NCBI GenBank assembly: GCA_027422505.1
Contig: JAPQWV010001371.1
Span: 1-64,000, forward strand
DNA: 64,000 nucleotides
Source of the DNA: Craterostigma plantagineum
Lineage: Eukaryota; Streptophyta; Magnoliopsida; Lamiales; Linderniaceae
Direction: 5' to 3'
Part shown: positions 10,185-64,000 of the stretch, in pieces
Numbering within the stretch: position 1 is the first letter of the stretch
Layout: every line of letters begins with the position of its first letter
Program-made: the position numbers and the translations under genes
The notes under the pieces: model-generated
Told to the model about the DNA's origin: nothing
Seen by the model: only the letters and a program-made list of their open reading frames with translations
Databases searched by the model: none

Positions 10185-12757
10185 ACTACTATTGACTACA
10201 GGAAATTGAATGACGCCACGAGAAATGATCATTTTCCCTTACCAGTTATTGACCAAATGCTAGAAAAATTATCTGGTCATTCATTTTATTGCTTTCTTGA
10301 TGGTTTATCAGGATACCTGCAGATTCCTATTGCGCCTGAAGACCAAGAGAAGACCACATTCACCTGTCCCTTCGGTACGTTTGCATACCGGAGGATGCCA
10401 TTTGTCTATGCAATGCTCCAGCCACTTTCCAGCGATGTATGATGGCTATATTCGACGAATTGGTAGGTGAGGTAATGGAGGTGTTTATGGATGATTTTTC
10501 TGTATTTGGATCGTCGTCTGATGTGTGCCTTGCTAATCTGAAGCTCGTACTCGCACGCTGCGAAGAAACGAACTTGGCACTTAATTGGGAAAAGTGCCAT
10601 TTCATGGTTCGAGAGGGTATAGTTCTGGGCCATAAGATTTCCTCAAAAGGAATCGAAGTGGACCGAGCTAAATTAGAGACAATAGAAAAATTACCTGTCC
10701 CCTCGAACGTGAGATCAATTAGGAGTTTTCTAGGACATGCTGGCTTCTATCGTAGGTTCATTAAGGCTTTTCTAAAATTGCTCGACCCATGTCTAGATTA
10801 CTTGAGAAAGATGCTCCGTTTGATTTTAACGATGAATGCTTGCATGCCTTTAATTTTCTTAAGGAGCGACTGATCGCAGCACCTATTATGGTTGCCCCTG
10901 ATTGGGGGTTACCTTTTGAACTAATGTGCGATGCTAGTGACTACGCAGTGGGGGCTGTATTAGGGCAGCAGAAGGATAAGCATTTTCGACCAATCTATTA
11001 TGTGAGTAAGACGTTGGATGCAGCTCAAGCCAACTACACCACTACCGAGAAGGAACTCCTGGCTGTCGTGTTCGCCTTCGACAAATTCAGGTCATATCTT
11101 ATTTTAACGAAAGTTATTGTTTTTACTGACCATTCTGCACTTAAGTATTTACTAGCGAAGCCAGATGCAAAGCCTCGACTCATTAGATGGATTCTACTCC
11201 TTCAAGAGTTCGACATCGAGATTCGGGACAAGAAAGGTGCAGAGAACGTTGTTGCGGACCATCTCTCTCGACTAGAGGAGCATGAAATACAAGATACCGA
11301 CAGAAGGGCAATCGTTGATACGTTCCCGGATGAGCATTTATACGCCATACGAACAGTAAGCGAAGGAACCCCTTGGTTTGCAGATTTAACTAACTATCTT
11401 GTTGCGAGGATTTTACCTAAAGAGTACACGAGTCAGCAAAAGAAGAAATTCTTTTCTGATTTGAAGTACTACTTTTGGGAAGATCCTTATCTTTTCAGGA
11501 GATGTGCAGACCAAGTAATCCGAAGGTGCGTTGCATTTCCCGAAACAATGAAAATTATTGAGCATTGCCATGGCGGACCAACCGGAGGGCATTATGCAGC
11601 TAATCGAACCGCCCAAAAGGTACTTGAATGTGGCTTCTATTGGCCACGATTTTTAAGGACGCTAATATGTACGTCAACACATGTGACCAATGTCAACGAG
11701 CAGGTAACATTTCTAAACGCGATGAAATGCCTCAGAATTTTATTTTAGTTTGTGAAGTGTTCGGTGTTTGGGGCATAGACTTTATGGGTCCATTTCCAAG
11801 TTCGTACAACAACAAATATATAATTGTGGCCGTTGACTATGTATCCAAGTGGGCGGAAGCGCAAGCTTTACCCACGAATGATGCTAGAGTTGTTGTTAGA
11901 TTTCTACGAGCATTATTTCACGGTTCGGGTCACCTAAATGCATTATTAGTGATAGGGGTACTCATTTTTGCAACACCCAATTCGCACGTACATTAGAAAG
12001 ATATGGTGTTAAGCATAGCATTTCTACTCCTTATCACCCACAATCAAGTGGTCAAGTAGAAGTAGTGAACCGTGAGTTGAAGCGCATTCTAGAGAAAACC
12101 ATAGATGGAAATCGTCGGGAATGGGCGAATAAGCTTAACGACGCACTTTGGGCCTATAGGACTGCATATAAGACACCAATAGGCACCACTCCATATCGAC
12201 TAGTTTACGGAAAAGCATGTCACCTTCCTGTTGAACTAGAACATAAAGCCTACTGGGCGATAAAGCCTTTAAACCTTGATTTGGTGCGAGCCGGTGAAAA
12301 ACGTAAGCTCCAGATCAATGAGGTTGATGAATTGCGATTTTCGGCATACGACAATGCAAAAATGTATAAGGAGCTCTCGAAAGCGTATCACGATAAGAAG
12401 ATCAAGCAACATAGAGAATTTCAAGAGGGGGATCAAGTCCTCCTTTTCAATTCTCGTCTTAGACGTTTTCCCGGAAAGCTAAGATCTCGTTGGTCTGTAC
12501 CTTTTACAGTTACTCGCGTTTTGCCCTATGGTACTGTCGAAATTTCAAATGTTGAGCAGGGAAATTTCAAGGTTAATGGCCATCGACTGAAGCATTATTA
12601 CGGTGGAGGAGAAGACACGGCACAAAGGAGGTCATGTACCTCGATTTCAAGCTACCGTAGAACGAAAAAAAGGGTACGTCCGGCTCACGACGTTAAAGAA
12701 GCGCTTCTTGGGAGGCAACCCAGGTATTTTTATTTATGTTTTAAGCATTATAAATAA
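10185..12757 (+). pseudogene. Athila pol: RT, RNase H and integrase
   Basis: Reading runs through four frames. RT starts at DYRKLNDATRNDHFPLP. The FGLCNAPATF block expected after RRMPF is damaged near 10410. The catalytic motif is present as FMDDFSVFG near 10485-10510. LGHKISSKGIEVDRAK and [13 protein letters not shown] follow. RNase H has [15 protein letters not shown] and [10 protein letters not shown]. Integrase has the [12 protein letters not shown] zinc region with [18 protein letters not shown] (first Asp), a degenerate second-Asp region near 11950, and [18 protein letters not shown] with the Glu. It ends in a GKLRSRW...V chromatin-side tail. Breaks near 10440, 10790, 11640 and 12000 mean no enzyme is made. 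Confidence 0.9.
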
Positions 12758-12889: not shown

Positions 12890-13060
12890 ATCTAGAGACG
12901 AGATAGGAACGATAGTTTTATTTCATAAAAGATGGTTACAACACCATTACAACGTGTGAAGGTCCAACACAAAAGCAAATTAAAACTGCGAATAACAGAC
13001 AGAACAATAGTTTATTTTGCTTCATAAGGGCGGTTAGACACAGGTGCACCTTGTGATAAC
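12890..13060 (-). repeat. Partial tandem duplication of the 3' end of the antisense unit
   Basis: On the minus strand, the end of the antisense ORF plus its poly(A) word (about 13060-13000) recurs in diverged form at about 12990-12905. GTTTTA(A/C)TTGCTTT, a GTGTTGG block and ATGAA(A/G)(C/T)AAAATAAAAC-like words appear in both. The second copy has no open frame. Confidence 0.6.
13005..13018 (-). terminator. Poly(A)-type signal of the antisense unit
   Basis: The minus strand reads AAAATAAACTATTG, with AATAAA starting 17 bases after the antisense ORF stop. The same 14-mer occurs twice, at 60408-60421 and 60469-60482, downstream of the matching ORF in the SIRE-like element. Confidence 0.6.
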
Positions 13061-13198
13061 CCAACACACGAAAGCAAGTAAAACTCCAAACAAACCCAAA
13101 AGAAGAGCAAGGTAAAGTGATAGCATATCTAAATTACGACGAATCCTTGCATACTCTTCACTCTCATTCTCACGATCTTGTTGTTGTCCCCAAAACAT
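13034..13198 (-). CDS. Antisense micro-ORF, single-pass membrane protein (Athila copy)
   Basis: A 54-codon ORF runs on the strand opposite to pol, 277 bases after the pol stop. The first 22 residues are hydrophilic and charged (MFWGQQQDRE, EE, RRN). Then come LDML and a hydrophobic segment of about 21 residues containing LALLLGLFGVLLAF and CWVI, ending in a short tail TRCTCV with two Cys. I recognise no database family. A second ORF with the same layout sits at 60662-60835 in an unrelated element. The shared blocks are MxWxxQ, EE, RRN, LDML and LLLxLFxVLLA...WV, and the last 28 residues have equal length. A TATA box lies about 90 bases upstream and a poly(A) word just downstream. I infer a real expressed gene of the element. 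Its function is unknown; a membrane or envelope accessory protein is possible. Confidence 0.75.
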   Translation of the reverse strand: MFWGQQQDRENESEEYARIRRNLDMLSLYLALLLGLFGVLLAFVCWVITRCTCV

Positions 13199-13287
13199 CG
13201 TGGCTAGCTAACCTAAATACTGAAAATAAGATTGTTGAAGACGTGGGTTTATGGTAGATGATGCTATTGTGTTGTTCTACCACTGTC

Positions 13288-13366
13288 TATTTATAGGCAT
13301 GAACGGCACAAAAATATCATTGTCATATCAGCAAATCCCATAAATGATACAGACGAATTTTTGACT
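13288..13366 (-). promoter_or_regulatory. Antisense promoter: TATA box and conserved 16-nt box
   Basis: On the minus strand, TATAAATA (13295-13288) lies 89 bases before the antisense ATG. AGTCAAAAATTCGTCT (13366-13351) lies 55 bases further upstream. The same two words in the same order occur at 60915-60908 and 60971-60956 in the SIRE-like element. The TATA context CCTATAAATAG is close to the plant consensus. Confidence 0.72.
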
Positions 13367-13529: not shown

Positions 13530-14300
13530 GTCACGGCCAAGAACTCAAGAGTCATGGCCGCGGCTAGCTAGTTCACGGCCTGTACGCTTACAACTCACGG
13601 CCGTGAACGGAAAAACAAGAGGCCACTGTCAAGCTTCACCGCCATTTGTTTAACTACTCACGGCCGTGAGGTATTGAACAACAATCATATCGTTCACTGT
13701 CCAAAGTCACGGCCAGAGGCGTAAATCTCACGGCCGTTACTCCGGCGGGAAATAAAAAAAAAATTATTGAAGTCACGGCCAATGATTCGCTAGTCACGGC
13801 CGCGACTAGGCCCAACCATTGCCACTGCCTACATTCACGGCCTGTGACCTACTGAGTCGCGGCCGTGAACGATACATTACTCATACACTGCCCGTAGTCA
13901 CGGCTTGTGGATACCCATTCACGGCCGTGACTCCGACAGGTTATATATATAAAAAAAAATTAAAAAATAAAAATAATAAATAAAAATAAAAATAAAAATA
14001 AAAATAATAAAAATAAAAATAATAATAAATAAATAAAATAATATATAGTAATAATATAAAAAATTATAATAAAAAAAATAATAAATATATATAAATATTA
14101 TATATATAAAAAAAAAGAAATAATGAAGAGGGTGTCACGGCCCGTTTCACGACACTCACGGCCGTGACTAAGACGGGCTAAACCCACTGCCCGGGGTCAC
14201 GGCCAATGACTCCAACAGTCACGGCCGTGACAACGACGCATAGGTGCACACTGTCCGTCTTCACTGCTTGTGAATTGTCATTCACGGCCGTGAATGTGAC
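13530..14300 (-). repeat. Array of TCACGGCCGTGA palindromes, internal copy
   Basis: The 12-bp palindrome TCACGGCCGTGA, or a one- or two-base variant, recurs about every 60-100 bases. Each is paired with a half-site TCACGGCC lying before it, which is the mirror image of the arrangement in the 3' LTR. The array is interrupted near 13940-14130 by a long A/T-only simple-sequence stretch (AAAAT, AATA and TA runs). It separates the antisense ORF from the post-pol ORF leader. Confidence 0.85.
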
Positions 14301-15090: not shown

Positions 15091-16451
15091 ATGGGTAAGA
15101 GCCGATCCGCTGCAGGACGTGCTAACGATTCGCGATCAACGAGTCGTCCACGTCGAGGCCAAAGCACGCCGTCACTGCTAGAGTCTATGGGGTAGTTTGA
15201 CGACGAGACGCATCAGGCCCGTTACAACCGGCTAAAGAATACGGAGTTCATTCCGACTGATCAAATTGACCACGACACGCTGGAAAAGTATCACATCGAG
15301 CAGCAAGTGGCCGGCTACACGTCCCTCAGCGGATGGCTCGACTTCTTCCACATTGACGAGCCGGCCTATAAGGAGCTAACCTTGGAGTTCTTATCCACCT
15401 ACTCTTTCAATGAAAATGGGCGTGACGGAATTACGTTCAGGGCTTTTAATACGGAGCACACCGTCCATGAGGACGATATTTGCACGGCGCTTGGATTGAG
15501 TGTACCATACTTTGGAGACCAGGGCCGATTCCCAGACGCATATTACAAGGAGTACCTTAAGTATCCGACGCAGCGCCAGACCTGTTTGGCGGAACTCGCG
15601 CGACCCGGCGAACCTGCCTTTAGTGTGAAGACCTCGAAGGCGTCTTCGCTCAGGAGCCCTGGTTTACGTTACATCCACCGGTTGCTTTCGACCTCGCTCG
15701 CACCAAGGGGCGACTCGCACGGCGCGATTGGACTTCGCGATCTGTACTACTTGGCCAAGATGCAGCGTGGTCAGCTGGTGCACTTAGGATTGGGCATGGC
15801 CTACGCCTTCAGTGCCAGGCTGATGTTCGTAGTCACGGGAAGATCACAGTGGGGCCGTTTATTACGAAGGTTATCAAGGGACTCAACTCCTGGCCAGCAA
15901 ATCCACCAGAGATGGAGATTGTGGGTGGGCGTAATCTGGTCAACGAGGAGATGATGTTGAAGATGAAGATGTTGATCAAAGCCCCCAGCTGGTCCCGCTC
16001 GAACAAGGTTTACGTCTGGCACGAGGTCTACCGTGGGCAGACGGACTTGGGCGACGCATTCCCGGAGCCACTAGAAATTGAGGGCGTGGGGCCATTCCCA
16101 GTTCACCCCGACACTGCCGGCACTTCCCATTCCTCCGGCTACCACGAAGGGGAATCATCAGGGGTCGCTCCTTTTGCCTCATCCGCAGACCTTCACACAC
16201 TACGCGAGGACATGCTACGTTACCATGAGGAGGCCATACGGCGTGACGAGGAGACACGGCGCCACCAGGAAGAATATGAGCGTCGAAACGAGGACGCCCA
16301 CAGATGCTACCGCGAGGAGCAACAGCGATATGAGCTGGCCCTTCAGGCGATGGACGGCGCGATGAAACATACACAGGAGTCAGTTCGACTTGCTCAGGAA
16401 TCGATGGCCCACCTTCGCCCGCGGCCACCATCGCCCCCACCACCACATTAG
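15091..16451 (+). pseudogene. Athila post-pol ORF (ATHILA ORF-1-like)
   Basis: From ATG at 15091 the frame begins MGKSRSAAGR with a basic, Ser/Arg-rich start. It meets TAG at 15193 (LESMG then stop, then FDDETHQARYN) and stays open through YTSLSGWLDFFHIDEPAYKELT and EFLSTYSFNE to HEDDICTALGL, the fold typical of the ATHILA ORF-1 / putative plant transposon protein family. After a frameshift near 15850 it continues to 16451 with an acidic, Glu/Arg-rich helix (YHEEAIRRDEETRRHQEEYE) and a proline-rich end. This ORF lies where Athila relatives carry an envelope-like gene. Its role is not established. The TAG and the frameshift make this copy broken. Confidence 0.75.
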
Positions 16452-18169: not shown

Positions 18170-20044
18170 TGATAAACGTATTTTAATACGTTTATTGTTA
18201 TGTTTATTTGGGTTATAATAGGAAAGTTTTGATCATTCTATGCATTTATTGGCTCTATTTACACCCATTTAAATATTGTAGGACCTTCGAATGATTATCG
18301 AGCGAATAGGAACGAAAACGAGGCGAAAACGACGCGAAAATGGCGAAGTTAGAAGCTGCCAGAAACAAGTCACGGCCGTGAACAGGCTTGCAAGAGGCCG
18401 TGAATGTTGGTAGTAAGCTTAAGGAGCCAAAAGTCCAAGGGTCACGGCCGTGAATCTTATAGCACGAAGCCGTGACAGTAGGCAGTGGGTCGACTAATGA
18501 AAGTCACGGCCGTGAATAGCCTCACAATACACCGTGAAACCGGGCAGAACCTCAAGTACTATAAGTCACGGCCGTGAGCTCCATTGTTCAAAGCCGTGAA
18601 TCACGGCAGTAGCTAAAGTATAGCATGTCACGGCCGTGAATAGCCACACACCAAGCCGTGAAGTCGGGCAGTAGCTGAAAATCATGTGTCACGGCCGTGA
18701 GTCAAGATGCACGTGGCCGTGACTGCTCCGGAGAAGTCAATATTTAGGGTTTTAGCCGCCTTCACGGCCGTGAAGCCTATTGTCAGAGGCCGTGACTCAT
18801 GGCAGAAAGTCAAGAAATAGGGTTTAAGCCGCCGTCACGACCGTGAAAGCCCATTAAGAGGCCGTGAACGTGTCAAAATTCAGGGTTTTAGCCCATTTTC
18901 GAAGCATAAAAAGGGGATGCCCCTTAGAACCGAAAACAACTGGAGAGGGACGAAAACTTAGAGCAAAGAAGAGAAGGAAGAACACTAGAAGCAGTCTCGT
19001 GATTCGGAGAAGCTCAAGGGACGATCCAACAACGAAGCTACGCTCATACGATCGAGGAACGAGAGCTCCACCTCGGAAACGCCTTATTCACTTCTTAGGG
19101 AAGTTTTTATGAGTTCTCTATCCTCGTTTCCCTTAAATCTCGTGACGTTCAATATGAGTAGCTAATCCTCTTGTATGTTTGGGAGTAGATGAACGTTGGG
19201 ATATGTCGTAGTTAAGGCGTAGGATAATCGTGAACACTTGTATTCGACTATTTATCGTTCTATGATATTGTTTCTTCGTATCAATATGTCTACGTGTTGA
19301 TATGAATGTGTGGTATATCGTTTAGGGCGACAGCTAAATAACGATCAGGCCGTTCGTAGACGTTAGGATTCGAGTATAGGGCGACAGCAAATACTCGATC
19401 CTCGCCATCTAGTAATCGCTAAACTTAGATTCCCGCGAACGTTTAGGGCGACAGCAAATCCGCGAGTGGGTAGGAAATTACTGCGATTTAGTCGATTTTC
19501 ACGTAGGAACGATATTCCGTAGCTTTAGCCGACAGCACCTAGCGGGATTCGAATCCCGAACACACATTTGTCATCTTAAGTCACTCTTATTACTTCTAGT
19601 TGTGTTCCTTAGTCTTCCGATCCTTTAAGTTGCTCTGTTAAGTTAGTTCATAGTATAAACAAATCCTACTATTTTATTTAGCCTAAATATCGATTCGACA
19701 GGTTAATACTAGTATTCATTTTATTCCTCGTGTTCGATACTCGGATATTCACTATAGCTATATTACAAACGATAGGTACACTGCCTATCGCGCGTGATTC
19801 TAGTTATAATATATTCGTTTTAGTTATTACTTGACGTACTCGCACGATCTTTTATTTAAACATACAAGCACGCGATCATAGACGAATGCGTAGAAAATGG
19901 TTGTACGAGGAGCAGAAGAATATCTATCGACTCTTTTTCTGGGTTAAATATTTCTCCTAGCCGCACATCGTGCGGCAACCCCTATCTAGTTAAATAGAAA
20001 AGTCTAGAAATTCTGTGAGCTTCTAAGCATTATATGGTAATCAT
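18170..20044 (+). repeat. 3' LTR of the Athila element
   Basis: The LTR starts TGATAAACGTATTTTAATACG directly after the purine tract. It contains the palindrome array (18368-18870) and a TATA-like CATAAAAAGG at 18905, followed by repeats of TAGGGCGACAGC (19324, 19379, 19443 and a variant near 19530). A related LTR start occurs at 38531. The 3' boundary is not certain, since there is no partner LTR for comparison. Confidence 0.65.
18368..18870 (+). repeat. Array of TCACGGCCGTGA palindromes in the LTR
   Basis: Eight units of about 60 bases each consist of the full palindrome TCACGGCCGTGA, some 12-15 bases of spacer, a half-site (A)GGCCGTGA, and a longer spacer often holding GGCAG and AGGGTTTTAGCC. 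The last unit lies about 35 bases before the TATA-like CATAAAAAGG. The spacers differ, while the palindromes are nearly invariant. Confidence 0.9.
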
Positions 20045-20486: not shown

Positions 20487-20635
20487 ATACATTAAATAAT
20501 TGCTCAGTTATCAAGGCCAGATCAAGACGACCAGTCTCAGCTCAGCAATACACAATTTAAACTAAGAAAAAAGAAAAAAAGAATAGGTATAAGGGTATTA
20601 TAACGTATCAATGCTTATCCAATCTGTCAATCTTT

Positions 20636-21097
20636 TGTTGAATATTTTCGAATAAAGAAAATAAAATATTAAAATAGTATATGACTTAGTCGAAGAGTAG
20701 TATCCCTTCGTAGGAAATAATTAATGAATTGTTATATCACTTCAAGGAAACATTATATCTGTTAAGTTATCTCTTTTGGCGAATAGAAGTACCACAGAAG
20801 GCACCTCTCTGCAACTATCTTTCTTCTGCAGAGAATCAACTCAAGCAATCAAATATGCTCAAACACACCAAAAGAATTCAGTGCATACTTCGCTAAAGCA
20901 AAAGCGCAGTACGTGTTTCTTTGTATCCTGAAGGTATTCGATTATTCTCTCGTTTGCTTTGTAGAGAGCGAAAAACACCTTTAGGAAAGTGGCTTATAGA
21001 TACACGCCTAGAAACAGATTATCTCAAGTTCCTGCAGAATTCCAAACTTGAAAGAGGACGAAGTCTTTTGATCACTACAGCCTTATCCTTCACAACA
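20636..21097 (+). repeat. 5' LTR of the Tork-like element, lacking the TATA segment
   Basis: Aligned to the 3' LTR, it lacks about 16 bases (TATAAATACTTGTGTT region) after CTCTCTGCAA. The 3' copy has TATAAATA there. The loss removes the likely TATA box from the LTR that would drive the element. Confidence 0.88.
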
Positions 21098-21127
21098 ATC
21101 TAAAGGTGATTTTTTGAATCTGTTTTC

Positions 21128-25021: not shown

Positions 25022-25539
25022 GTTCAATGAGTCAAAGTACATCATCACCGTGATTTGGAGTGCTACAATATATTATGCATCCCAAGTTTAAGTAGCACTT
25101 GTTGCCCGTTAGTAAAAAGGTAGGTTGAGATTTGATCTCTTAATAGGTCTATAGGCTATATTTTAATTTTGTCGGATATCGAACGACGGGGATATCGTGA
25201 TAGGTCTACCTATGTGAGTGTAAAAGTTTGACCGCTTAAAAGAAGTTCAAGAGCTTGACTTCGACACACTCATGAAGGATACTGGACACAAGGTCTATAA
25301 TGTGTCGCTATAAATGAATGTCTGGCGGTGTGAGAAAATCAAATGTGTGACCGACTCTACAGGTTGTCAGTATGAATAATTGGTTCAAGGCTGTATCCAC
25401 CATTTTATTCGGACCTCTTGTATCGAGCCTTCACTAAGTGATGGTTCAAATCTTTTGGAATACCATTATCTATGAATGAGATTTATAGATTTGTTTATCA
25501 TTAAGGAGAGTTTCCTTTATATTGAAAATGGCGGGGGAT

Positions 25540-26017
25540 TGTTGAATATTTTCAAATAAAGAAAATAAAATATTAAAATATTATATGACTTAGTCGAAGA
25601 GTCGTATCCCTTCGTAGGAAATAATTAATGAATTGTTATATCACTTCAATGAAACATTATATCTGTTAAGTTATCTCTTTTGGCGAATAGAAGTACCAAT
25701 TCAGAAGGAACCTCTCTGCAATTATAAATACTTGTGTTCTTTCTTCTGCAGAGAATCAACTCAAGCAATCAAATCTGCTCAAACACACCAAAAGAATTCA
25801 GTGCATACTTCGCTAAAGCAAAAGCGCAGTACGTGTTTCTTTGTATCCTGAAGGTATTCGGTTGTTCTCTCGTTTGCTTTGTAGAGAGCGAAAATCACCT
25901 TTAGGAAAGTGGCTTATAGATACACGCCTAGAAACAGATTATCTCAAGTTCCTGCAGAATTCCAAACTTGAAAGAGGACGAAGTCTTTTGATCACTATAG
26001 CCTCATCCTTCACAACA
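25540..26017 (+). repeat. 3' LTR of the Tork-like element
   Basis: 478 bases, TGTTGAATATTTTC to TTCACAACA, followed by TCTTT. It keeps TATAAATA near 25725, which the 5' copy has lost. Otherwise the two LTRs differ by scattered single changes. Confidence 0.92.
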
Positions 26018-26291
26018 TCTTTCAATCATCATACCAAAGTATGTTGTTTACCAAAGACCAGCTGTATATGGGCCCACTTACCATGTGTTTCGGTCCTCAT
26101 CTTCTACGATCTTCTTCAACCTTTTTGATAACCAACAACAGAAAAAAGAAGCAACTTTTTTTTATTGTCTCAGTCCACTTTCCAAGCATATAGGAACAGG
26201 CAAAAATCTGACTGAAAACCCTCCATTGTCGTTGAGCTTTGAAGCAGTGCTTGAAGATGATGATGAAACATATGGAGACGATGATAGTAAA

Positions 26292-50913: not shown

Positions 50914-51902
50914 TGTTGTACGTATTCGAACACTTCATTTTCTTATGTATGATCTTGCGTACACAGGAATATAAGTGAGGGGCAACGAGGTTGACGATTG
51001 GGTTTGATAGATAAGGCTCATTGTTTGAACCTGTGATATTATATAGTTTCTACGATGTAATAAAATCGTTCTGTTCGTCTATTTAAGAAATGGGATTCTC
51101 CTTGTCATTCATGTCACTTTTTTTTTCATGTCTTGGTACGTTATTAGATTTCATTGTGACGTTACGAAATTGAATTGGCAATGCGACATATTCATGCTAC
51201 ACAACAATTGAGCTTAATGTTTCATGTATTTAGAAAATAACTATAAACTATCTTGTAGACATTATCAGACAGATACCAATATAAACTTCTTGTGAGAAAA
51301 TCCATTGTTATTAATGGTGTGGTTAATGAAAATAAGAGAAAAAAAGAAAGAAAAATAAAAGCATCATAAGAAACAGTCTCGGCTCACAGGACCACAAATC
51401 CGGCCCAGTGAAAATGGGCCCACAAAATGAAAAATGTGGCCAAGTAAAGACAATTACTTGGGCCAATAGCTGTGGCCCGTTTGACTTAAAAAATTATTGT
51501 AAATTACTTAATGGAAAAAGGGCCCATAAATTAATTAATAGAAAGACCAAAAAGTTTTTAAAGGCCCATAAAGCCAAAGGGACCAGGGTCACCCAAAACG
51601 AAAAACGGCCCTGTGGATTAGCAAATGATAGGAGGAGAGAGATGGGGGGGGGGGAGACCCAAGTTGGAATGTTTTTTCGTTTAACCACACATTTCTGAAG
51701 CAATTTTCACTGGCCATACAACAGGAAGGTGAAGTATTTCAATTGACAAATTGGATAATCTCAACGGAACAAGTATGGTTATAAACACAAACGAATTGAA
51801 TTTGATTTGCAACAAATGGTTCGTGTGTGACAAGCTCACTCAAGGAAATAACATCACCCACGTAATCCTTTGAGGCTCATTGGCTTTGTTAATGGGATTC
51901 GA
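50914..51902. other. Intergenic, no gene seen
   Basis: AT-rich, followed by a segment with many GGCCC words (51400-51610) and a G homopolymer of about ten bases near 51643. An ORF of 96 codons at 51408 shows no known domain. Confidence 0.5.
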
Positions 51903-52960
51903 CACTAGTAGAAGATATAGTATACGCCACGGCACTATGGGCGACGGCTACCAAAAACGCGTCGCCCAAAATGGGCGACGGTTATGATAAAACATGCGTC
52001 GCCTATAATCCCACGTCAATATGGGCGACGGTCGGTTCGCAGAACGCGTCGCCTATAGGTTTAATTTTTTTTTGTTACTCATGGGCGACGGTTACGGGAA
52101 AAATTAGTAGTAACCGTCGCCCATAACCCTTTTATTAAGACCCCTTCATCCTCACTTCATCATTTCGACCGAGACCAAAACAAGAAAACCGAGCGCGGCT
52201 TCGTGGCGATTTTCCGGCGAAATTGAACGTTTTCCGACCTATCCGAGCTTGGGGAGCACGGTAAGAACTCCATTATCAGTTTCCCTCTTCCTATTTTGCG
52301 GTATACGGCTTAAATAGTTCGAATTTGGGGTTTTTTTTGAAATATTAGGTTACGAATTTTTGAGTTTTTGGAGCTTGATTTGTGTGATTTCATAGCTTAT
52401 TGTTGTTTTATAATTGATTTAAGGTTGATATTGAACTTGATCTTTGTGGAAATTAGGTTTTTGGGTGAAGTTTGGACAAGTTGGAATTTTTTGTTGTAAA
52501 TTGGCCGCGGCCTCTCCCCTCTCGGTGAAATTTTCCGGCAACGTCGACTCTTTTCCGACGATTCTGGGCTACTAAAACACGGTAAGCCCTTGTTTTTAGT
52601 GAAGTTTGGAGAATTTTGGGAATTTTGGTTGAATTCGTCGAAAATCGAATTTTTCATATTTCTTTAATTCGATAAGAGAATAATTATGTGCATAATTTTG
52701 AGTCTGATATTGAGCTTATATTTTGCGATGCGTAGTTTTGGGACGAATTTGGAGGATTCTGGTACCTTGTCGACTTTTGGGCGATTTTTGGGTGATATTC
52801 GTGCTTCGGACAGCTATACGTAAGTTTTCAAATCCGTATTTGATTTATATGCCTTCGTCTTTGTGAATTTAAGTTTTTATTTAACCTTAAATAATCTCAC
52901 ATTTCTGAATGTAAATAACATTCAGAAAGGTAAAGTATTTTCACCGGCCGTACAACAGGA
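51903..52960 (+). mobile_element. CACTA (En/Spm) element, 5' end
   Basis: CACTAGTAGAAG at 51903 is a CACTA terminal repeat. To 52130 the word ATGGGCGACGGTTA (and its reverse TAACCGTCGCCCAT) recurs at least six times as subterminal binding sites. A leader follows with two similar exon-like segments, each with TTTTCCGGC(G/A)A...TTTTCCGAC and a CACGGTAAG donor (52260 and 52580). No transposase ORF or second end is seen before 52967, where a retrotransposon starts. Confidence 0.8.
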
Positions 52961-52966
52961 AGGTAA

Positions 52967-53249
52967 TGTTAGGAATATTATAGAAGTGTCCAAAATATTG
53001 TTCTAAGTCTTGTAATTTCTTTACGATGTATTATCTTATGTATTTGGGTTGTGTTTGTAATGGGCTTGTTAGGGGCCCAATAAACTTAAATACCTCTCAA
53101 GGTATTTAAGCTTAAACCCTAACAAGCATTAATCAAGTTTTCAGTCTTGCAAAACTCTCACGTATTCAACACTAAACCTCTATAGCACACTATTCACATA
53201 TTACGAAGGTTTAATCTGGTGAAGTGTTCTTGGATAATCTGGAATTACA
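52967..53249 (+). repeat. 5' LTR of the plus-strand SIRE-like element
   Basis: TGTTAGGAATATT to TGGAATTACA, 283 bases, with two bases to the primer site. A weak TATA-like region is TATTTAAGC near 53103. It is preceded by GGTAA, the candidate target duplication. Confidence 0.75.
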
Positions 53250-53251
53250 AG

Positions 53252-53263
53252 TGGTATCAGAGC
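53252..53263 (+). promoter_or_regulatory. Primer binding site (initiator Met tRNA type)
   Basis: TGGTATCAGAGC, the usual plant copia primer site. Confidence 0.92.
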
Positions 53264-54105: not shown

Positions 54106-56643
54106 ATGGACTCTTTCAGCATGGGAAATGATGTTAGACCTCCCATCATCCGACATGGAGAGTACGCAGTCTGGAAGAGAAGATTCATCAACTTCATAGA
54201 AAGCAAGGACAATTCTGAGAATCTACTAGAATCTATTTACAATGGACCTACACAGTATTGGACAATAATTCCCGCCACTACTGACACCACCCCTGCAAGA
54301 GAGGAACAAAGAATCTTGAAAACTACTGATCAATGCAATGATGAAGAAAAACTGCGACTAAAGGCAGATAAAGTGGCGAAATCATACATGATGCAAGCCA
54401 TTCCCAATGACATTTTGATGCAACTCGAATGTGGTGAGAGTGCAAAAGAAATGTGGGATGCTCTTCGAATTATGATGCAGGGGACAGAAGTCAATACAAT
54501 GGCAAGAATGGCAAACACACTCATCTCGTATGACCGCTTTCATGCTAACAAAGGGGAAACTCTCCAAGAAACCTTCCATCGATTTCTTGTTCTTTTAAAT
54601 GAGCTAAAGATGAATGGAGTCACAAAAAGTGTAATGGAAATCAATATCAAATTTTTAGGATCACTTCATCCAGAATGGGAGGCTACTACAATTATGATAA
54701 GACAGATGAACGACCTAACTAAAGTTAGCATTCATACATTATTCGACTACCTCAATCAACATTCCAATCATGTGGAGAAACGAAGGGAGGAAATCAAACC
54801 AATAGGAAGCGAATCGCTTGCTCTTATGACTGAACGATCATCAAGAAAACAATTCAAGGACAAAGAAATTATCCAGTCATCACAAGTTAAGGAGGGAGAA
54901 GACTCTGGTTCTGATGACGAATTCAAGGATCTTACCAAACATGCAGACCAGGAAATCACCCTCAAAGATCTTGCTAAGCAACTCGCTCTTGTCTCGAATT
55001 TCGTGCAGAGGAAATATTATAAGAAGACTGGTTCCTCCTCAAATCGTCAAAGAACTTCCTCCAACTCTAAAGGAAAGACTCAGGATGAGGACAACAACTC
55101 TGAAACTCCTCAACAAGGTGGCAAATGCTTCAACTGCGGCAAGAATGGACACTTTGCCAGAGAGTGCAGAATGCCCAAGAAAAAGGATGTTAACTATTAT
55201 CGCAGAAAAGTTCAATTAGCTGAACAGAAAGAAAAGGGGCTGGTCTTAATGGCAGAAGAGGATCATTGGCTTGAAGATACCTCAGACAGCGAGAATGAGA
55301 ACGTGGCACTGATGGCCAAACTAGATGACGAAGAAGATGGAGTTGGAGCTGAAGGTAGCGAGTCAGACAGGGAAACTTCTAACAATTCAGACATCGTGGA
55401 GGTAAGTGAAGCAGATTATGATTCCTTACTTAAGATGAAAAATGAATTTTTATCCTTATATAAATCTAACAAATTTGGGAAAAAGAAAATCAAAGAACTT
55501 GAAACTAACTTAGAGAAAAATTTAGCAGTATTAGATAAGTTTAGATATGATTATGCATGTGAGCAGAATCGTGTAATTGTGGCAAATGAAAAAATTGCTA
55601 AGCTAGAAATACAAGTGCAAAAATCCGAAGCTAAAGCCAAGGATTTAGAAAAGGAAATGAAATCTCATAGAGATCAGGCAATGGATGCTACAATTAAATA
55701 TGACTTACTAAGTAAAGAACGGGAAAGACTGTACTCCAAAATAAAAAAATTGGAGGACATCTTAACCCGACGAGATCAATCAGAACAAACGATCTTCTTG
55801 AACAAACCAGCTAATGTTGATTTTTATAATCCCCATAAAGGACTAGGTTTTGAAAACCCATGTAAGTTAAAACAAGGCATATCAAGTGCACCTTATCTAT
55901 ATGATCTCAAATTCATGCAGACAGGTTGCCTGGCAAATCTCATGTCTTTCGTAAGTAAAGATGAGACACCAACACACAGTAAAACTCAAACATCATTTGA
56001 TTATTCAGAGTTAAATGACAGTAATAAAGATCGAAATTGTCCAGCAATAACAGAATTTGAATCAGATATCCCACGTCCAAAGGAAGTAGAAACACCGATA
56101 GTTACATATACAACAGGATATATGCCTGATTGCATAAAGAAAATCAGTGATCTTCACTCCACTATCGAAAACGAGAGAAAGTCATTTGGAGAAGAAAGGC
56201 AGAAACTTCTTCAGGAAATATACTCACTTAAAGAAAAATTAAGATTACACACAATATCATACACCTTAGTTTCGCATGACAAAATTTCCTGCACTAATAC
56301 ATTGAAATTTTCAGGACCCACAAAAGAGCCATTGAAGGGGCAAGTATGGGTTAAAAAGGAAGATATCTTGAAGAAAACTAGTGATCTCAATACACCTTTT
56401 GTCATTGAGTATTTTTCTCCCAGAACTTTTGTACCATCTTTTCGCCATGTATCAAAAAAATTGTATTCTAAATCAAAAACAAAGCTTTCCATGCATGATC
56501 ATGTCACCAAGCAAACTCACAAAACAATTCATAAAAATAAAAATACAAAGTCAAGACACGAATCAAAATCAAAAGCTACCAAAAAACCTATGACAAATGG
56601 GTTCCAAAGCTTCCGACTTCAGGAACGCAAATCCCAACCCTAG
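54106..56643 (+). CDS. Gag polyprotein of the plus-strand SIRE-like element
   Basis: 845 codons, starting MDSFSMGNDVRPP. Residues 1-230 are the capsid-like UBN2 region (EYAVWKRRFINFIESKDN, AKEMWDALRIMMQGTE). Acidic and basic stretches follow, then the zinc knuckle CFNCGKNGHFAREC at about 341-354 for RNA binding. HWLEDTSDSENE comes next, then a coiled coil at about 460-550 (KIKELETNLEKNLAVL, KLEIQVQKSEAKAKDLEKE). The tail is very basic, rich in Lys, His and Ser. Near 56585 a run of six A marks the point where the family's C-terminal frame (KWVPK, then WVPKTL and TAG at 56757) is lost, so the annotated end at 56643 is probably a frameshift product. Confidence 0.9.
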   Translation: MDSFSMGNDVRPPIIRHGEYAVWKRRFINFIESKDNSENLLESIYNGPTQYWTIIPATTDTTPAREEQRILKTTDQCNDEEKLRLKADKVAKSYMMQAIPNDILMQLECGESAKEMWDALRIMMQGTEVNTMARMANTLISYDRFHANKGETLQETFHRFLVLLNELKMNGVTKSVMEINIKFLGSLHPEWEATTIMIRQMNDLTKVSIHTLFDYLNQHSNHVEKRREEIKPIGSESLALMTERSSRKQFKDKEIIQSSQVKEGEDSGSDDEFKDLTKHADQEITLKDLAKQLALVSNFVQRKYYKKTGSSSNRQRTSSNSKGKTQDEDNNSETPQQGGKCFNCGKNGHFARECRMPKKKDVNYYRRKVQLAEQKEKGLVLMAEEDHWLEDTSDSENENVALMAKLDDEEDGVGAEGSESDRETSNNSDIVEVSEADYDSLLKMKNEFLSLYKSNKFGKKKIKELETNLEKNLAVLDKFRYDYACEQNRVIVANEKIAKLEIQVQKSEAKAKDLEKEMKSHRDQAMDATIKYDLLSKERERLYSKIKKLEDILTRRDQSEQTIFLNKPANVDFYNPHKGLGFENPCKLKQGISSAPYLYDLKFMQTGCLANLMSFVSKDETPTHSKTQTSFDYSELNDSNKDRNCPAITEFESDIPRPKEVETPIVTYTTGYMPDCIKKISDLHSTIENERKSFGEERQKLLQEIYSLKEKLRLHTISYTLVSHDKISCTNTLKFSGPTKEPLKGQVWVKKEDILKKTSDLNTPFVIEYFSPRTFVPSFRHVSKKLYSKSKTKLSMHDHVTKQTHKTIHKNKNTKSRHESKSKATKKPMTNGFQSFRLQERKSQP

Positions 56644-56652
56644 AAATAACTA

Positions 56653-59463
56653 GTGACTCTGCGTCATCCACCAACAAAGGACAATCTAGGGAATCTAATC
56701 GGACTAATATATATAATAGAGGTGGACCCATATTTCAATGGGTACCTAAAACCCTCTAGTTTTATTTTGCAGGCCCTTCATGTGTGGTACTTAGATTCTG
56801 GTTGCTCCACACACATGACTGGGACAAAGGAACTGTTGAGCAACTACGTTGATAGACCAGGAGGACTGGTACGCTTTGGCAATAGCAATGGAGCCAGAAT
56901 CCTTGGTTATGGCGATCTCATATGCAATCGACTCACAATTAAACAAGTCTCGTATGTTGAAGGGCTGACACACAACCTCTTATCAATAGGACAGTTCAGT
57001 GATTTTGGACTCCAAGTTGTGTTCCTAAAGAAAACTTGCAAAATTCTCAATGCCAATGGTGAAGAACTTCTCACTGGAACTCGCAAGACAAATCTCTACA
57101 CCATTGATATTAGAACTGTCAAACCAAAGACTAACATCTGCCTAATCTCCAAAGCAACTTCAACTCAAAATGACTTGTGGCACCAGCGATTATCTCATCT
57201 TAACTTCAAGACCCTCAACAAGCTGTCAACCAACAAATTGGCTATTGGACTACCATCACTGAAATACCAAAAAGAGCATATTTGCTCTGCTTGTGAGAAA
57301 GGAAAAATGAAGAAAGCTTCACATCCTACAAAACACACATCATCCGCTCAACATCCTCTAGAGCTTTTACACATGGATCTGTGTGGCCCGATGCGAACTG
57401 AAAGCATAAGTGGAAAGCGGTATATGCTGGTTATCGTCGACGACTTTTCCCGATTTACTTGGGTACGTTTCTTACGAACTAAATCAGAGACAGTAGAACA
57501 TATTCCAAATCTAATCAGAACAACACAGAACCTACTTCAGAGAAATGTTCAAATAGTTAGATCAGACAATGGAACAGAATTCAAGAATCAACAGCTCAGT
57601 GACTTCTACGAATCCATAGGAATTACTCAACAGTTTTCTGCTATCTACACACCTCAACAAAATGGGGTTGTTGAAAGGCGAAATCGAACACTCGTAGAGG
57701 CTGCCCGAACAATGATCATTCAATCATCACTACCTCATTTCCTTTGGGCGGAAGCAATGAATACTGCTTGCTATACACAGAATCGCACAAACATTCATCT
57801 AAGATTTGGTAAGACGCCCTATGAACTTATAAATGGAAGACTGCCCAACATTGCCCATTTTCGAATTTTTGGATGCAAGTGCTTCGTCGCCAACGACCGT
57901 GAAGACAAGTCCAAGCTCGATCCAAAAGCTACTGAAGGAATCTTCGTAGGCTACTCTGCGCAATCTAAGGCATACAGGATATTTCTCAGAAACAGAAGGA
58001 TGATCATTGAAAGTATAAATGTCACCTTTGATGAGGGACTCGAACCTTCTACTGGACATAGCAGTTTGGAACGAGTAACTAGCACACCACACCTTATTCA
58101 TTCTCATACAGAAAAGGGAGAATGTTCGTCAGATGCATCTGAACGGAACTCTTCAGAACCAGGATCCGACAAAGCAATTGACTATTCTAGACATAGCAAT
58201 CCCACATGCTCCACTCGCCAAACTCAAGAGGAACTGGATCTGGATCTACTTTTTGAACATATCTATATCTCTCAAAATCCGAAAAAACCACCCACAACTT
58301 CCATTCCACATACTGAATCCAGCCCTAGTTCATCAACTCATAATTCAGAACCCACTCCTGACCAGACAATTCCTCCCTCAGATGCAGAAGGCTCGATCCC
58401 AACAACCGCAACAACGACGCAGACAGATACCTCCTCTTCAAACTCACCAGGCAACACTACCGTGTCTGCAATCGACTATCCACTCAGTGAGGAATCCCAA
58501 ATAGGCGAAACGACATTACCCCACGAAAAGAAATGGATCCGACATCATCCTACAGATCAAATAATAGGAGATCCCAATACAGGAGTAACAACTAGAAGAA
58601 CACATTCAAATGAATGTAATTTCACCTGTTTCTTGAGCCAAATGGAACCTAAACGAGTAGTTGATGCACTACAGGATCCCAACTGGATAGTGGCTATGCA
58701 AGAGGAGATTAATCAATTCGAACGTCTCAAAGTATGGAACTTAGTTCCTCGTCCAAAAGGGAAGACTGTGATTGGAACAAAGTGGGTATTTAAAAACAAA
58801 AAGGATGAAGATGGTGTTGTAATTCGAAACAAAGCCAGGCTCGTTGCTAAGGGATATAATCAACAGGAAGGAATTGATTACGATGAAACGTTTGCCCCTG
58901 TAGCCAGAATCGAAGCTATTCGGTTATTCCTTGCATACGCCGCACACAAAGATTTTACAGTCTATCAAATGGACATAAAAACAGCCTTCTTGAACGGAAT
59001 TCTGAAAGAAGAAGTGTATGTGTCACAGCCAGACGGATTTCTCAATGCTGATCATCCCGACTTTGTTTACAAACTCGACAAATCACTGTACGGACTTAAA
59101 CAAGCTCCAAGGGCCTGGTATGAGGTGCTCTCCGACTTTCTTATCTCTTCAGGCTTCACTAAAGGGAAAATTGACGCTACACTGTTCGTAAAGAAAAATG
59201 ATTCTGATATCATGCTTGTGCAAATCTACGTGGATGATATCATTTTTGGCTCTACTAATCCTAAACTTTGTGAAGAATTTAGCATTCTGATGCAATCGCA
59301 ATTTGAAATGAGTATGATGGGAGAAATGTCATTCTTCCTCGGACTACAAATCAAACAACTTCAGGATGGGATCTTCATCAATCAGTCAAAGTACATCCAT
59401 GATATTCTCAGAAAATATGGGATCGACAAGAGCAAATCATCGAGCACACCTATGTCCACCTGA
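56653..59463 (+). CDS. Pol of the plus-strand SIRE-like element: protease, integrase, RT
   Basis: The open frame holds 936 codons; there is no credible ATG, and the functional start is likely the splice-like site at 56772. Protease [13 protein letters not shown] has DSG at residues 48-50. The zinc region WHQRLSHLN...[14 protein letters not shown] lies at about 175-230. Integrase has [18 protein letters not shown] and [10 protein letters not shown], giving the complete D, D, E triad. RT runs from [12 protein letters not shown] through [18 protein letters not shown] and DIKTAFLNG to [10 protein letters not shown]. At STPMST the next codon is TGA (59461), where relatives have a Ser codon; RNase H lies beyond it. 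Integrase and protease look intact. Confidence 0.92.
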
Positions 59464-60172
59464 TGCTCACTGGATGCAGATCACCTTGGTGAACCTGTAG
59501 ATGTTACTCATTATAGAGGGATCATTGGATCACTGCTCTACCTCACTGCCAGTCGACCAGATATCTTATTCTCTACGTGTCTATGTGCTCGATTTCAAGC
59601 TAATCCCAGGGAGTCACACCTTCATGCTGTCAAAAGAATCTTGAAGTATTTAAAAGGAACACCAGACCTTGGACTGTGGTATCCTAGAAACTCAAGTATG
59701 AAACTAATAGGCTATTCTGACGCAGATTTTGCAGGATGCAGACTGGACAGGAAAAGCACCTCTGGACACATGCAATTCCTAGACGATAAACTTGTATGTT
59801 GGGCATCAAAGAAACAAAATTGTGTGTCAACTTCCACGGCGGAAGCAGAATACGTCGCTGCAGCAAGTTGCTGCTCACAAATTTGGTGGATCAGAACAGC
59901 TACGGGACTACGGGTTTGATCTAAATAAAATTCCTATTTACTGTGATTCCAAGAGTGCTATCGCAATTACCTGTAATCCTGTACATCACTCACGCACTAA
60001 GCACATAGATCTTCGCTATCATTTCATAAAGGACCATGTAGAAAGAGGCATAATAGAAATGTACTTTGTCAATACAGAGCTTCAACTAGCCGATTTGCTT
60101 ACAAAAGCATTGGATGAAAAACGCTTCCAATTCTTAGTTGCAAAATTAGGAATGTTGAACCTCAATTTTTAA
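59464..60172 (+). pseudogene. RNase H part of the plus-strand SIRE-like element
   Basis: After the TGA the frame continues CSLDADHLGEPVDVT, SRPDILFSTCLCARFQ, LKYLKGTPDLGLWYPRN, YSDADFAGCRLDRKSTSG and STAEAEYVAAASCCSQIWWIR. A one-base shift near 59890 moves it to the frame reading DYGFDLNKIPIYCDSKSAIAI, HSRTKHIDLRYHFIKDHVE and ADLLTKALDEKRFQFL, ending at TAA (60170). All conserved RNase H blocks are present. Confidence 0.9.
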
Positions 60173-60344: not shown

Positions 60345-60660
60345 TGGCGTTACATCGAGGGGGAGAAATGCTATATCTATGCATCGAGGGGGAGTAAGTG
60401 AATTCATCAATAGTTTATTTTTAAGATACTCGATAGGCATTGCATCGATGGGGAGTAAGTGAATTCATCAATAGTTTATTTTTAAGATACTCGATAGGCA
60501 TTGCATCTAGGGGGAGTTTTTCAACAGTTTATTCTTAAGATAACTCTTAAAAAATTCTTCAAAACACGAACAACTCTCTCAAACACATAATACGCAGATA
60601 ACTCTTAAAAATTCTTCAAAACACGAACAACTCTCTCAAACACATAATACGCAGATAACT
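60345..60660 (+). repeat. Post-pol tandem repeats with purine tracts
   Basis: The purine tract (A)TCGAGGGGGAG or a variant occurs four times (near 60354, 60384, 60444, 60508). A segment of about 60 bases containing GTGAATTCATCAATAG and GATACTCGATAGGCATTG is repeated in tandem between 60396 and 60505. A second repeat of about 56 bases (TTCTTCAAAACACGAAC ... CGCAGATAACTC) occurs at about 60550-60605 and 60606-60662. The antisense poly(A) words fall inside the first repeat. Confidence 0.85.
60408..60535 (-). terminator. Poly(A)-type signals of the antisense unit (three copies)
   Basis: Minus-strand AAAATAAACTATTG occurs at 60482-60469 and 60421-60408, and a variant AGAATAAACTGTTG at 60535-60522. 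These lie 125-250 bases beyond the stop of the antisense ORF. The first two are identical to the word at 13018-13005. Confidence 0.55.
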
Positions 60661-60661
60661 C

Positions 60662-60835
60662 TTAAAAACTCATATGCTCGATGAAGACCCAAAGCAGAAC
60701 AGCAAGTAAAACAACGAATAAGCTCAAAAGAAGGAAAATCTCAATAACCAGCATATCCAAATTATGCTCAAAGTTACGTCTTAACTCTGCATGTTCCTCG
60801 AGCTTCTTCTCTTCTTCCTGCTTCTGCCAATTCAT
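60662..60835 (-). CDS. Antisense micro-ORF, single-pass membrane protein (SIRE-like copy)
   Basis: A 57-codon ORF on the strand opposite to pol, beginning 490 bases after the pol stop. It starts MNWQKQEEEKKLEEHAELRR, a charged helical segment, then N, FEHN and LDML. A hydrophobic stretch contains IFLLLSLFVVLLAVLLWVF, and the tail is IEHMSF. Motifs and length match the ORF at 13034-13198, and the last 28 residues align without a gap. The tandem repeats downstream begin at its stop codon. It has its own TATA box and a shared upstream box. No known family is recognised. I infer a conserved small membrane protein made from an antisense transcript. Confidence 0.75.
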   Translation of the reverse strand: MNWQKQEEEKKLEEHAELRRNFEHNLDMLVIEIFLLLSLFVVLLAVLLWVFIEHMSF

Positions 60836-60907: not shown

Positions 60908-60971
60908 TATTTATAAACACGAAGGAAACTTGCGTCATTTATTGTCCCGACATTAAGACGAATTTTTGACT
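60908..60971 (-). promoter_or_regulatory. Antisense promoter: TATA box and conserved 16-nt box
   Basis: On minus, TATAAATA (60915-60908, within TTTATAAATATATAGG) lies 72 bases before the antisense ATG. AGTCAAAAATTCGTCT (60971-60956) lies 40 bases further upstream. Both words match the Athila copy exactly. Confidence 0.72.
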
Positions 60972-62170: not shown

Positions 62171-62333
62171 CATACTTAAAGAAATTTTTGACAAAATTTT
62201 TCTCGAGTGGGCCAAAGTGTTGGGCTAAGCCTTCTTATCATCAAACGAAATTTTATTCAAACTCATCACTATTCATAATAGCCAAGTCCTCTTATCATGG
62301 CATATCTAATTTTATTTATCTTCTGTGTTGCAG
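61550..62333 (+). other. Possible intron in the leader of the envelope-position ORF
   Basis: Donor GTGGTATGAAT at 61550 and acceptor TTCTGTGTTGCAG ending at 62333 could bracket 784 bases. The ORF ATG follows at 62383. An inner acceptor TTGCAG at 61615 would give an unusually short intron. The donor shares GTATGA with the donor before the Athila post-pol ORF. Confidence 0.4.
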
Positions 62334-62382
62334 TTTCAGCACGAATTCCCGGTGTCATATATATAAAAAAAAAAGGAAAAAT

Positions 62383-64000
62383 ATGACGACACCCACGGAT
62401 CTAGTCTACCCAACTTCGAAATGGATAACAACCAAAGATAATAATTTCCAACTCGACCTGCATACATTCAAGTGCAAGGACGAAATCATCATATCCATTC
62501 TGAGGAATCACCATCTTGGGTATGCCTTCTCCGCCTCGGTCCAAGTTCCTACCGTTTACCTTCAACAATTCTGGGGGACAATGAAGACCAAAATTGCCCA
62601 AGATAATAGCATCTACTACGAGGCCCAAATCGCAACTGAGACTGTCACCATCACAAAGGAACTCATTCGTAGTATTCTAAGAATGCCAAGTCAACCTCAA
62701 TACGAACCTGAGGCTTTCGAAAATGAGCTCCTGGAGGACATGATGAGGATGGGATACTACACGCCGATCAAGTTTGTCTCCCATTTTCAGAATTCCATGA
62801 TCCCGCATCCGTGGCGAACGCTCTTCGCATTTGTCAATAAGTGCTTCTCACCCAAGCACTCAGGATGGGATAGATGCAATATCACAATTCTTCGGATCTT
62901 CCATGGGATCGTGTTTCGAAGAAATTACGACTTTGCCAAACTTATCACCACAGATCTCGACGACCAACTTTACCAACGAACTAAGTCCAAAAAGCCACTG
63001 AATTTGCCATATCTCCGCTGGTTCTCACTTATCATCCACCATTTTCTGACCACAACAACAGGAATACCATCACGACCTGTGGAAGAAAACTTCACTCCAC
63101 CCAAACTGCGCTACCTTCATAAAGGAAAGTCTGATGAGAAATACTCACGCACCGCAATGCCAATCCCTCACGAGTTACTCATTCTTGCAAACCCCGACCA
63201 TATCGATGCCTACTACGAAGACTACAAAGTTCCCAATCCCACGACATAGGATAGCCCACCTGAGTCTAACCCAGGGGTTAGTGAGACTGAGAGAGCTGAA
63301 ACGAGCGAGAGAGAAAGAGAGAGTGAGATGCTGAGAGAAACCACAGAAACTGAATCTATCCCACACACACAACAGACTACATCTCAAGAAGCAATCCCTG
63401 ACCAACCACCACCATCCTCTGAACAAACCATACCTGAACAATCACTCGAGGAACAACCACATGCCGAACAAATTGAACAACCACTAATGGATGTTCCAGA
63501 GATAACTACTACTGCACTACATCAGTCAGAAAAAGCCGGGTCAATCCCTAGGATAGAAGACGTCGTACATGACCTAACGACGCATGAGCGAACCCCACCT
63601 GGCCATTCACTTGTCTCCCAACAGACAAGTGTCTCAACACAACACGAACCACCCCAAGCCTCCAGCAGCTCGGTTCCTGTGTCTGAACCAACTCAAGAAA
63701 TACCCATTCTTGTGACACAGGCCGAGCCTCTGCCTGATCTTCAGGCCTCAACGTTCATAGAAGAGCCCCAAATAGAGGCTCTTCAAGGATTGGACGGAAG
63801 TCTCTCGGATGTTGATGATTTCAGCAGCTCACCATCCGCGAGCCACCGTACAGAACCTAGTTTTGGACGTGTGCTAACGAGACGCCTTGGCGATCTCGGT
63901 GAGAGCTCCACCCAAGCCCGTCACACTGACGTGGCAACAACGACCCGAGCACCATCTCAGAAAGATGTGTCGCAAGGAGAGGTCGGAAGACCCGTGGAAA
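62383..64000 (+). pseudogene. SIRE-type envelope-position ORF, incomplete at window edge
   Basis: ATG at 62383 starts MTTPTDLVYPTSKWITTKDN. It continues with LHTFKCKDEIIISILRNHHLGYAFSAS, VPTVYLQQFWGTMK, MIPHPWRTLFAFVNKCFSPK and LRIFHGIVFRRNYDFAKLI, the conserved globular part of the large extra ORF found after pol in SIRE-type elements of dicots. TAG at 63247 stops it after 288 codons, but the frame stays open to 64000. The downstream part is Pro/Glu/Ser/Thr-rich with many QP, EQ and SSS runs, and probably disordered. Most likely one CAG codon became TAG. I see no clear signal peptide or membrane segment. Its function is unproven; envelope is only the name given for the position. Confidence 0.78.

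Follow-up and report, generated by a model that had tools for sequence, protein, structure and literature searches.

Two LTR retrotransposons of Craterostigma plantagineum that belong to different superfamilies, an Athila element (Ty3/gypsy) and a SIRE-like element (Ty1/copia), carry on the strand opposite to gag-pol a small gene that, judged from its sequence, is conserved, is homologous in the two carriers and moves as a module. Both copies lie in the window, i.e., the 64,000-nt stretch of contig JAPQWV010001371.1 analysed here, and relatives were sought in its own assembly (1.71 Gb, 6262 contigs). We consider it rather probable that Athila and SIRE share a homologous antisense gene with a predicted promoter, that its product is a single-pass membrane protein under selection, and that this gene is passed on as a module by recombination and serves an accessory role. 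The gene is short and can be recognised by its 16-bp box; it is marked by protein-level selection, survives the loss of pol and occurs in two superfamilies.

The original prediction had described a complete-looking antisense unit in the Athila element and the same succession of words in the SIRE copy at 60.4-61.0 kb. Both descriptions proved accurate: every named word is in its place on the minus strand, and the 16-bp box, TATAAATA, the ORF and AAAATAAACTATTG follow one another in identical order in the Athila unit (13005-13366) and in the SIRE unit (60408-60971) (Table 1). In both window copies the first ATG downstream of the TATA word is the start codon of the ORF; where the ORFs are quoted as 13198-13037 (Athila) and 60835-60665 (SIRE), the stop codons are left out. 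The end of the Athila unit is repeated in tandem, in diverged form, at 12906-12990, with the last 11 codons recognisable (6/11 alike). The stretch upstream of the Athila unit (13550-13950) is GC-rich, contains repeated CACGGCCGTGA-like words and is rich in gaps in the alignment of Athila copies. In SIRE-type promoters (e.g., 60908-60971, minus strand) TGACG, which we take to be an as-1/bZIP-like word, lies between box and TATA, and the other strand of the box reads TTGACT, presumably a W-box-like word; a response of these promoters to stress is possible.

Table 1. Features of the two antisense units and of their carrier elements in the window
Feature	Position	Strand	Basis
Athila upstream box AGTCAAAAATTCGTCT, 16 bp	13351..13366	-	word located in window
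Athila TATA word TATAAATA, predicted promoter	13288..13295	-	word located in window
Athila micro-ORF, 54 codons + stop, one predicted membrane helix	13034..13198	-	first ATG after TATA
Athila poly(A)-type word AAAATAAACTATTG	13005..13018	-	word located in window
SIRE 16-bp box	60956..60971	-	word located in window
SIRE TATA word TATAAATA	60908..60915	-	word located in window
SIRE micro-ORF, 57 codons + stop	60662..60835	-	window tblastn match to Athila protein
SIRE AAAATAAACTATTG, two copies 3' of ORF	60469-60482 and 60408-60421	-	word located in window
Athila pol remnants (RNase H, integrase), Ty3/gypsy, upstream of unit	10789..12757	+	Pfam, ORFs
Athila env-side ORFs, ATHILA / Transposase_32-like	15307..16451	+	window copy below Pfam cut-offs
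Athila 3' LTR	18170..19878	+	similarity to another copy's LTR: 90% over 1313 b, plus 73% piece
SIRE gag + pol, Ty1/copia	54106..60172	+	Pfam Retrotran_gag_2, RVT_2, rve; end of RNase H
SIRE env-like ORF	62188..63249	+	ORF list; relatives
SIRE 5' LTR	51703..53252	+	partner 66029-67599, same contig, 95.7-97.9% identical

The two micro-proteins retrieve each other from the 64-kb window by tblastn run without composition adjustment or SEG (E 6e-10 and 7e-10), the next-best matches standing at E 0.22 and 0.026. Aligned globally under BLOSUM62 they score 98, while 5000 shuffles that preserve the composition of each half give 18 +/- 8.4 (maximum 54), and the DNA of the two units scores 193, against 131 +/- 9.8 (maximum 169) in 1000 dinucleotide shuffles. 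For the two proteins by themselves, composition-adjusted BLASTP gives a weak match (E 0.28).

The assignment of the carriers to Athila (Ty3) and SIRE (Ty1) is upheld by gypsy-type and copia-type Pfam domains, respectively. RT_RNaseH and RT_RNaseH_2 are above cut-off and Integrase_H2C2 is below it in the window Athila pol, and another Athila copy (L001) has RT_RNaseH, Integrase_H2C2 and rve above cut-off. Among the four ORFs scanned for the ATHILA family, two (L028, L007) exceed the cut-off, that of L001 falls just below it and the window copy below it. Athila LTR pairs bracket the unit and are 99.6% alike in L001 and 98.5% in L023. The SIRE carrier has RVT_2, a copia gag and a AGGGGGAG polypurine tract adjoining the 3' LTR (octamer at 66021, LTR match from 66029); since its LTR partners flank the unit, the unit lies inside the element. 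The env-like ORF of SIRE has no Pfam match. According to the available part of PMC2829016, AGGGGGAG is the polypurine-tract motif of Sireviruses, and the extra octamers of env-bearing Sireviruses mostly lie after env; in the window, octamers at 60358, 60387 and 60509 are clustered directly after the SIRE pol, beside the antisense gene's 3' end. That the unit is an independent DNA transposon was rejected, no inverted-repeat arms of at least 12 nt bracketing the unit in either window copy. Elsewhere in the window, paired LTR-like repeats at 20635-21101 and 25539-26020 (94% alike) surround a separate copia-type element. In another contig, long ORFs in both orientations stand beside the unit of L030 (L038, C15:10883700-10893600); they match the RNase H query at only 29%, and we take them to resemble an endogenous pararetrovirus.

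The unit is abundant. The 16-bp box occurs 1587 times in exact form genome-wide, and 1370 of these boxes (86%) have TATAAATA 36-62 nt further on, whereas the backward-read box and the backward-read box-N36-62-TATAAATA pattern are each found 0 times. The whole assembly yielded 3375 first-look candidates for the Athila protein and 2938 for the SIRE protein; 149 of the best 150 of the former and 147 of the best 150 of the latter are free of stops, but these lists were chosen by similarity and therefore say nothing about decay. Box and TATA also recur in loci picked by their protein, and are thus kept where they were not selected for. Among the 30 protein-selected Athila loci (L001-L030), the box is exact in 26 and has at most one mismatch in all 30, TATAAATA lies 80-110 nt 5' of the ATG in 29, and AAAATAAACTATTG is exact in every one; box and TATA stand at the same distance in 6/6 protein-selected SIRE loci examined. 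The expectation that other Athila and SIRE copies carry antisense homologues is thereby confirmed for both types in this one genome. Six pairs within L001-L030 are more than 99% alike over 2.7 kb or more and are probably duplicate contigs, so that not all loci are independent insertions. Three units (C1:17675486, 17683275 and 17691081; L066-L068) encode an identical protein at a spacing of about 7.8 kb, perhaps reflecting a tandem duplication of an element.

An ORF-blind sample was formed by the first 100 of the 1370 places with box and TATA (contigs C1-C3, L044-L143). An ORF of 51-62 codons, judged by length, is present at 80 of them, two of which (L056, L118) carry a frameshift and were left out of the rate counts. 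The original prediction had named common stops as evidence against itself; 78 copies are intact, 21 are broken and one place (L062) is without a visible ORF, the intact fraction alone proving little for an ORF so short. The 78 comprise 36 copies of Athila type, 35 of the main SIRE type (S1) and seven others (Sx), these types being classes of protein sequence, with the carrier element checked at a minority of the ORF-blind places. In all 78 the first ATG after TATA is the ORF start.

The slow sites of the Athila type are the protein-changing ones. Its 36 intact copies show 0.72, 0.74 and 1.43 changes per site at codon positions 1, 2 and 3, and 1.49, 1.28 and 1.29 in the 5' UTR, the box-TATA spacer and the 3' flank, respectively. 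S1 shows the same tendency more weakly (0.40, 0.28 and 0.54 at the three codon positions; 5' UTR 0.46, spacer 0.47, 3' flank 1.13). The excess at third positions has a p of 1e-5 in Athila and of 3e-7 overall, and is marginal in S1 (p 0.05). Omega was obtained from parsimony counts on distinct sequences with kappa set to 2 or 3; since the kappa estimated from the counts is 3.2-4.0, the true omegas are somewhat higher than those given here. For all 78 copies (67 distinct) omega is 0.42-0.53 (p at most 2.4e-5), and in Athila it is 0.35-0.38 on internal branches (p 2e-4 to 7e-4) and 0.34-0.37 on terminal ones. The terminal branches of S1 give 0.41-0.46 (p 0.005-0.015); on its internal branches, taken by themselves, omega is 0.63-0.71 and does not differ significantly from neutrality (p 0.16-0.25). 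The micro-ORF thus appears to bear the mark of selection on the protein. For the Athila type this part of the original prediction stands, with the internal branches of S1 falling short of it, and the dN/dS foreseen to be well below 1 is, in this genome, below 1 but moderate, at about 0.35-0.5.

These rates bear directly on the reading that the conserved thing is a short antisense RNA driven by box and TATA, acting through dsRNA or some other regulation of the element, and that the ORF is incidental. Promoter words and a position common to both superfamilies would suit such an RNA, and antisense transcripts of LTR elements have been discussed as possible silencing triggers (PMC7264820, available part). 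However, the non-coding parts of the Athila unit change about as fast as third positions while codon positions 1 and 2 change half as fast, and the frame is kept in 78 of the 100 ORF-blind copies, and we hold this reading to be unlikely. Constraint on every base of the whole unit of about 490 bp was likewise rejected, the non-coding parts in the ORF-blind sample changing like third positions; the high identity among L001-L030 therefore reflects exchange and the way in which these loci were picked. Sense-strand coding was also rejected as the cause of the periodicity: by phases reckoned by hand, the sole frame that could mimic it (+ frame 1) has 9 stops in the Athila stretch.

The single membrane helix that had been claimed for the protein is borne out by prediction. 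An AlphaFold2 model consists of one helix (residues 2-52, mean pLDDT 85.6), the best 19-residue hydropathy is 2.83, from residue 30, and in eight proteins of 54-61 residues the hydropathy maximum begins at residue 28-35. The Leu-Ala of the helix core is invariant in 57/57 distinct proteins, and a Trp near the helix end is found in 56/57. With its hydrophobic stretch near the C-terminus, the predicted micro-protein looks like one of the tail-anchored type (single hydrophobic helix near the C-terminus, short tail). Its Pfam matches are all below cut-offs.

The sequences further indicate that units have been reshuffled relative to pol in Athila and SIRE alike. Compared with the window unit, those of the 29 other protein-selected Athila loci are 93-99% alike in 26 cases and 89-91% in three, an identity that is high partly by choice because the loci were picked by micro-protein similarity. 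The integrase sides of the same loci split into separate groups, 13 of them being about 78% like the window's. For these 13 loci, dS of pol against the window copy is 1.96-3.15 (10 loci) or saturated (three). Unit identity is 95.7-97.5% for 12 loci and 91.2% for the other, and micro-ORF dS is 0.06-0.13 for 12 loci and 0.32 for the other; the micro-ORF dS value of the truncated L011 is an artefact. AU tests on 23 loci (seven of the 30 were dropped, six without comparable pol and one truncated) reject the tree of the other region in 6/6 cross-comparisons of unit, pol and env side. For the unit, the trees of pol and of the env side are both rejected (p 0.0017 each); for pol, those of the unit (p 3e-37) and of the env side (p 2e-4); and for the env side, those of the unit (p 1e-42) and of pol (p 1e-10). 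Among SIRE loci, L149 matches the window copy at 88.5% on its pol side, yet has a type-3 unit about 64% like S1; this unit is 92.6% like that of L055, although the pol sides of L055 and L149 are only 82.9% alike. Within a superfamily, the mismatch between unit and pol would be explained if co-packaged RNAs recombine while being reverse-transcribed.

Pol adjoins the unit in 24/30 protein-selected Athila-type loci. Four others (L007, L018, L023, L028) are pol-less: they retain gag and protease (in L007 gag is matched only at its end), have a 26-27-residue stretch of the integrase ORF end next to the unit and give no match to the RNase H region. L018 and L023 probably represent one insertion, their identity being 99.7% over 6.1 kb, which leaves about three separate pol-less copies. 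L022 groups with the pol-less loci over 3 kb. Gag-protease-only elements of the Athila type keep the antisense gene and the env side, with the well-matched LTRs of L023 mentioned above; they would be non-autonomous and depend on partners for reverse transcriptase and integrase.

The persistence of the unit in pol-less elements and its reshuffling relative to pol and env side could also be read as the behaviour of a hitch-hiker, i.e., a gene derived from the host or from a virus that spreads via retroelements and benefits itself or the host, not the element. The contexts examined are, however, LTR elements: the 24 Athila loci with pol, the four pol-less ones and 6/6 contexts fetched for Sx units (14 of which are in the tree described below), which are SIRE-like (for L148 this is judged solely from the RNase H end). 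Such a hitch-hiker seems improbable to us.

The original prediction had left open whether exchange of a module or repeated capture of one gene brought the unit into both superfamilies. In an unrooted tree of 85 units the Athila types form one clade (36/36, support 96) and so do the S1 units (35/35, support 100), and SIRE-borne units bridge the Athila and SIRE types: the central split (support 92 or 100, the label being ambiguous on rerooting) puts L101 and L135 on the Athila side. Independent capture of the same host gene, once by Athila and once by SIRE, would be in keeping with a unit tree that sets neither root nor direction of transfer, and capture of genes by plant LTR elements is documented (PMC7264820, available part). 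Yet box, TATA and poly(A) word would then need to reach the same antisense place twice, and the position of the SIRE-borne L101 and L135 also argues against it. We therefore see repeated capture as quite unlikely, and the sequences, through the tree conflicts and the bridging SIRE units, favour module exchange. A chance ORF with chance words in AT-rich intergenic DNA, to which the shortness of the ORF would lend itself, is scarcely conceivable, since chance similarity is ruled out by the shuffles, the backward controls (0 against 1370 and 1587) and the codon-position rates, and the one sense frame that might mimic the codon-position pattern has 9 stops in the Athila stretch.

If a gene exchanged as a module is indeed what Athila and SIRE have in common, transcription from box and TATA would yield an antisense mRNA of some 0.3 kb that ends near the AATAAA-type word; an antisense promoter of its own would allow the gene a short message apart from the genomic RNA, which would give mainly gag-pol. 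Translation from the first AUG would produce a membrane microprotein, inserted with its short C-terminus out in the manner of the tail-anchored type and with arginines before the helix. Since the gene is kept where reverse transcriptase and most of integrase are lost and gag and protease are kept, its role may lie with Gag or the element RNA, outside reverse transcription and integration. Our guess, the weakest part of the proposal, is that the microprotein serves at a membrane as a docking site for Gag particles or element RNA, or assists their movement or particle maturation. By analogy with viruses one may go further and tentatively suppose, as a possibility rather than an expectation, that a free-standing antisense membrane-gene cassette circulates across the Ty1/copia-Ty3/gypsy divide, among plant elements that resemble endogenous retroviruses, and works like the small membrane movement or viroporin genes of viruses. 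If true, unrelated retroelements, pol-less ones included, would use one membrane step through a shared accessory.

No relatives outside this genome were found in the protein database, IMG/VR or the PDB. Control queries with the env-like ORF of SIRE against the protein database, and with the pol of both elements against IMG/VR, were likewise unmatched, so that these collections seem to lack plant elements. A full-text search of open-licence papers did not return the letters of the box, and titles, abstract starts and open-licence literature described no antisense ORF of membrane type for either Athila or SIRE; nor was an antisense ORF common to Ty1/copia and Ty3/gypsy described in the available parts of the open-licence literature. 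The main text of PMC2829016, on conserved non-coding motifs of Sireviruses, does not contain the word "antisense". The claim that the unit is undescribed has to be narrowed accordingly: antisense extra ORFs are known from plant LTR elements, and none was found that spans the superfamilies or encodes a membrane microprotein.

Among known systems, the env-like ORFs of Athila and SIRE belong to the same elements and adjoin the unit. However, they are on the sense strand, are longer and, as judged with shallow profiles, have no detectable homology between Athila and SIRE, so that the unit cannot be said to travel with env. A retroviral-type env-like ORF was rejected for the unit itself, which is antisense and not on the sense strand downstream of pol. 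It may be likened to ASP of HIV, an antisense accessory gene of a retrovirus. HBZ of HTLV-1 (PMC11963269, available part) is an antisense accessory gene as well, but its product is nuclear; the likeness drawn here is one of arrangement. In bdelloid rotifers, types of ORF3 are common to LTR and Penelope-like elements, which are very different retroelements, and some ORF3s are small membrane ORFs; their host is an animal, and the available part of the source mentions neither an antisense orientation nor a shared promoter (PMC5408684).

The antisense extra ORFs of plant LTR elements (aORF-3R) comprise Grande gene23, RIRE2, Retand ORF4 and PvRetro13 (PMC7264820, PMC11963269, available parts); their function is stated to be unknown, and so, for most of them, is their origin (PMC7264820, available part). 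Like them, the present unit is antisense to gag-pol, lies between pol and the 3' LTR and is conserved in most copies (78/100 intact among places with box and TATA). In the available parts of the same two sources, the Grande product is nuclear, others have TRP28 or SMC domains, and the Retand antisense ORFs are mostly >600 bp, against 54-57 residues here. A TRP28 antisense ORF of the Retand kind was rejected, Pfam scans of the two window proteins and 32 members giving no TRP28 (PF04195). Compared with aORF-3R as described in those parts, the present unit is set apart by its predicted membrane protein, its shared promoter box and its presence in both Ty1/copia and Ty3/gypsy elements; as a single short gene with a short tag, it makes both the function of antisense ORFs and the trading of parts across superfamilies testable.
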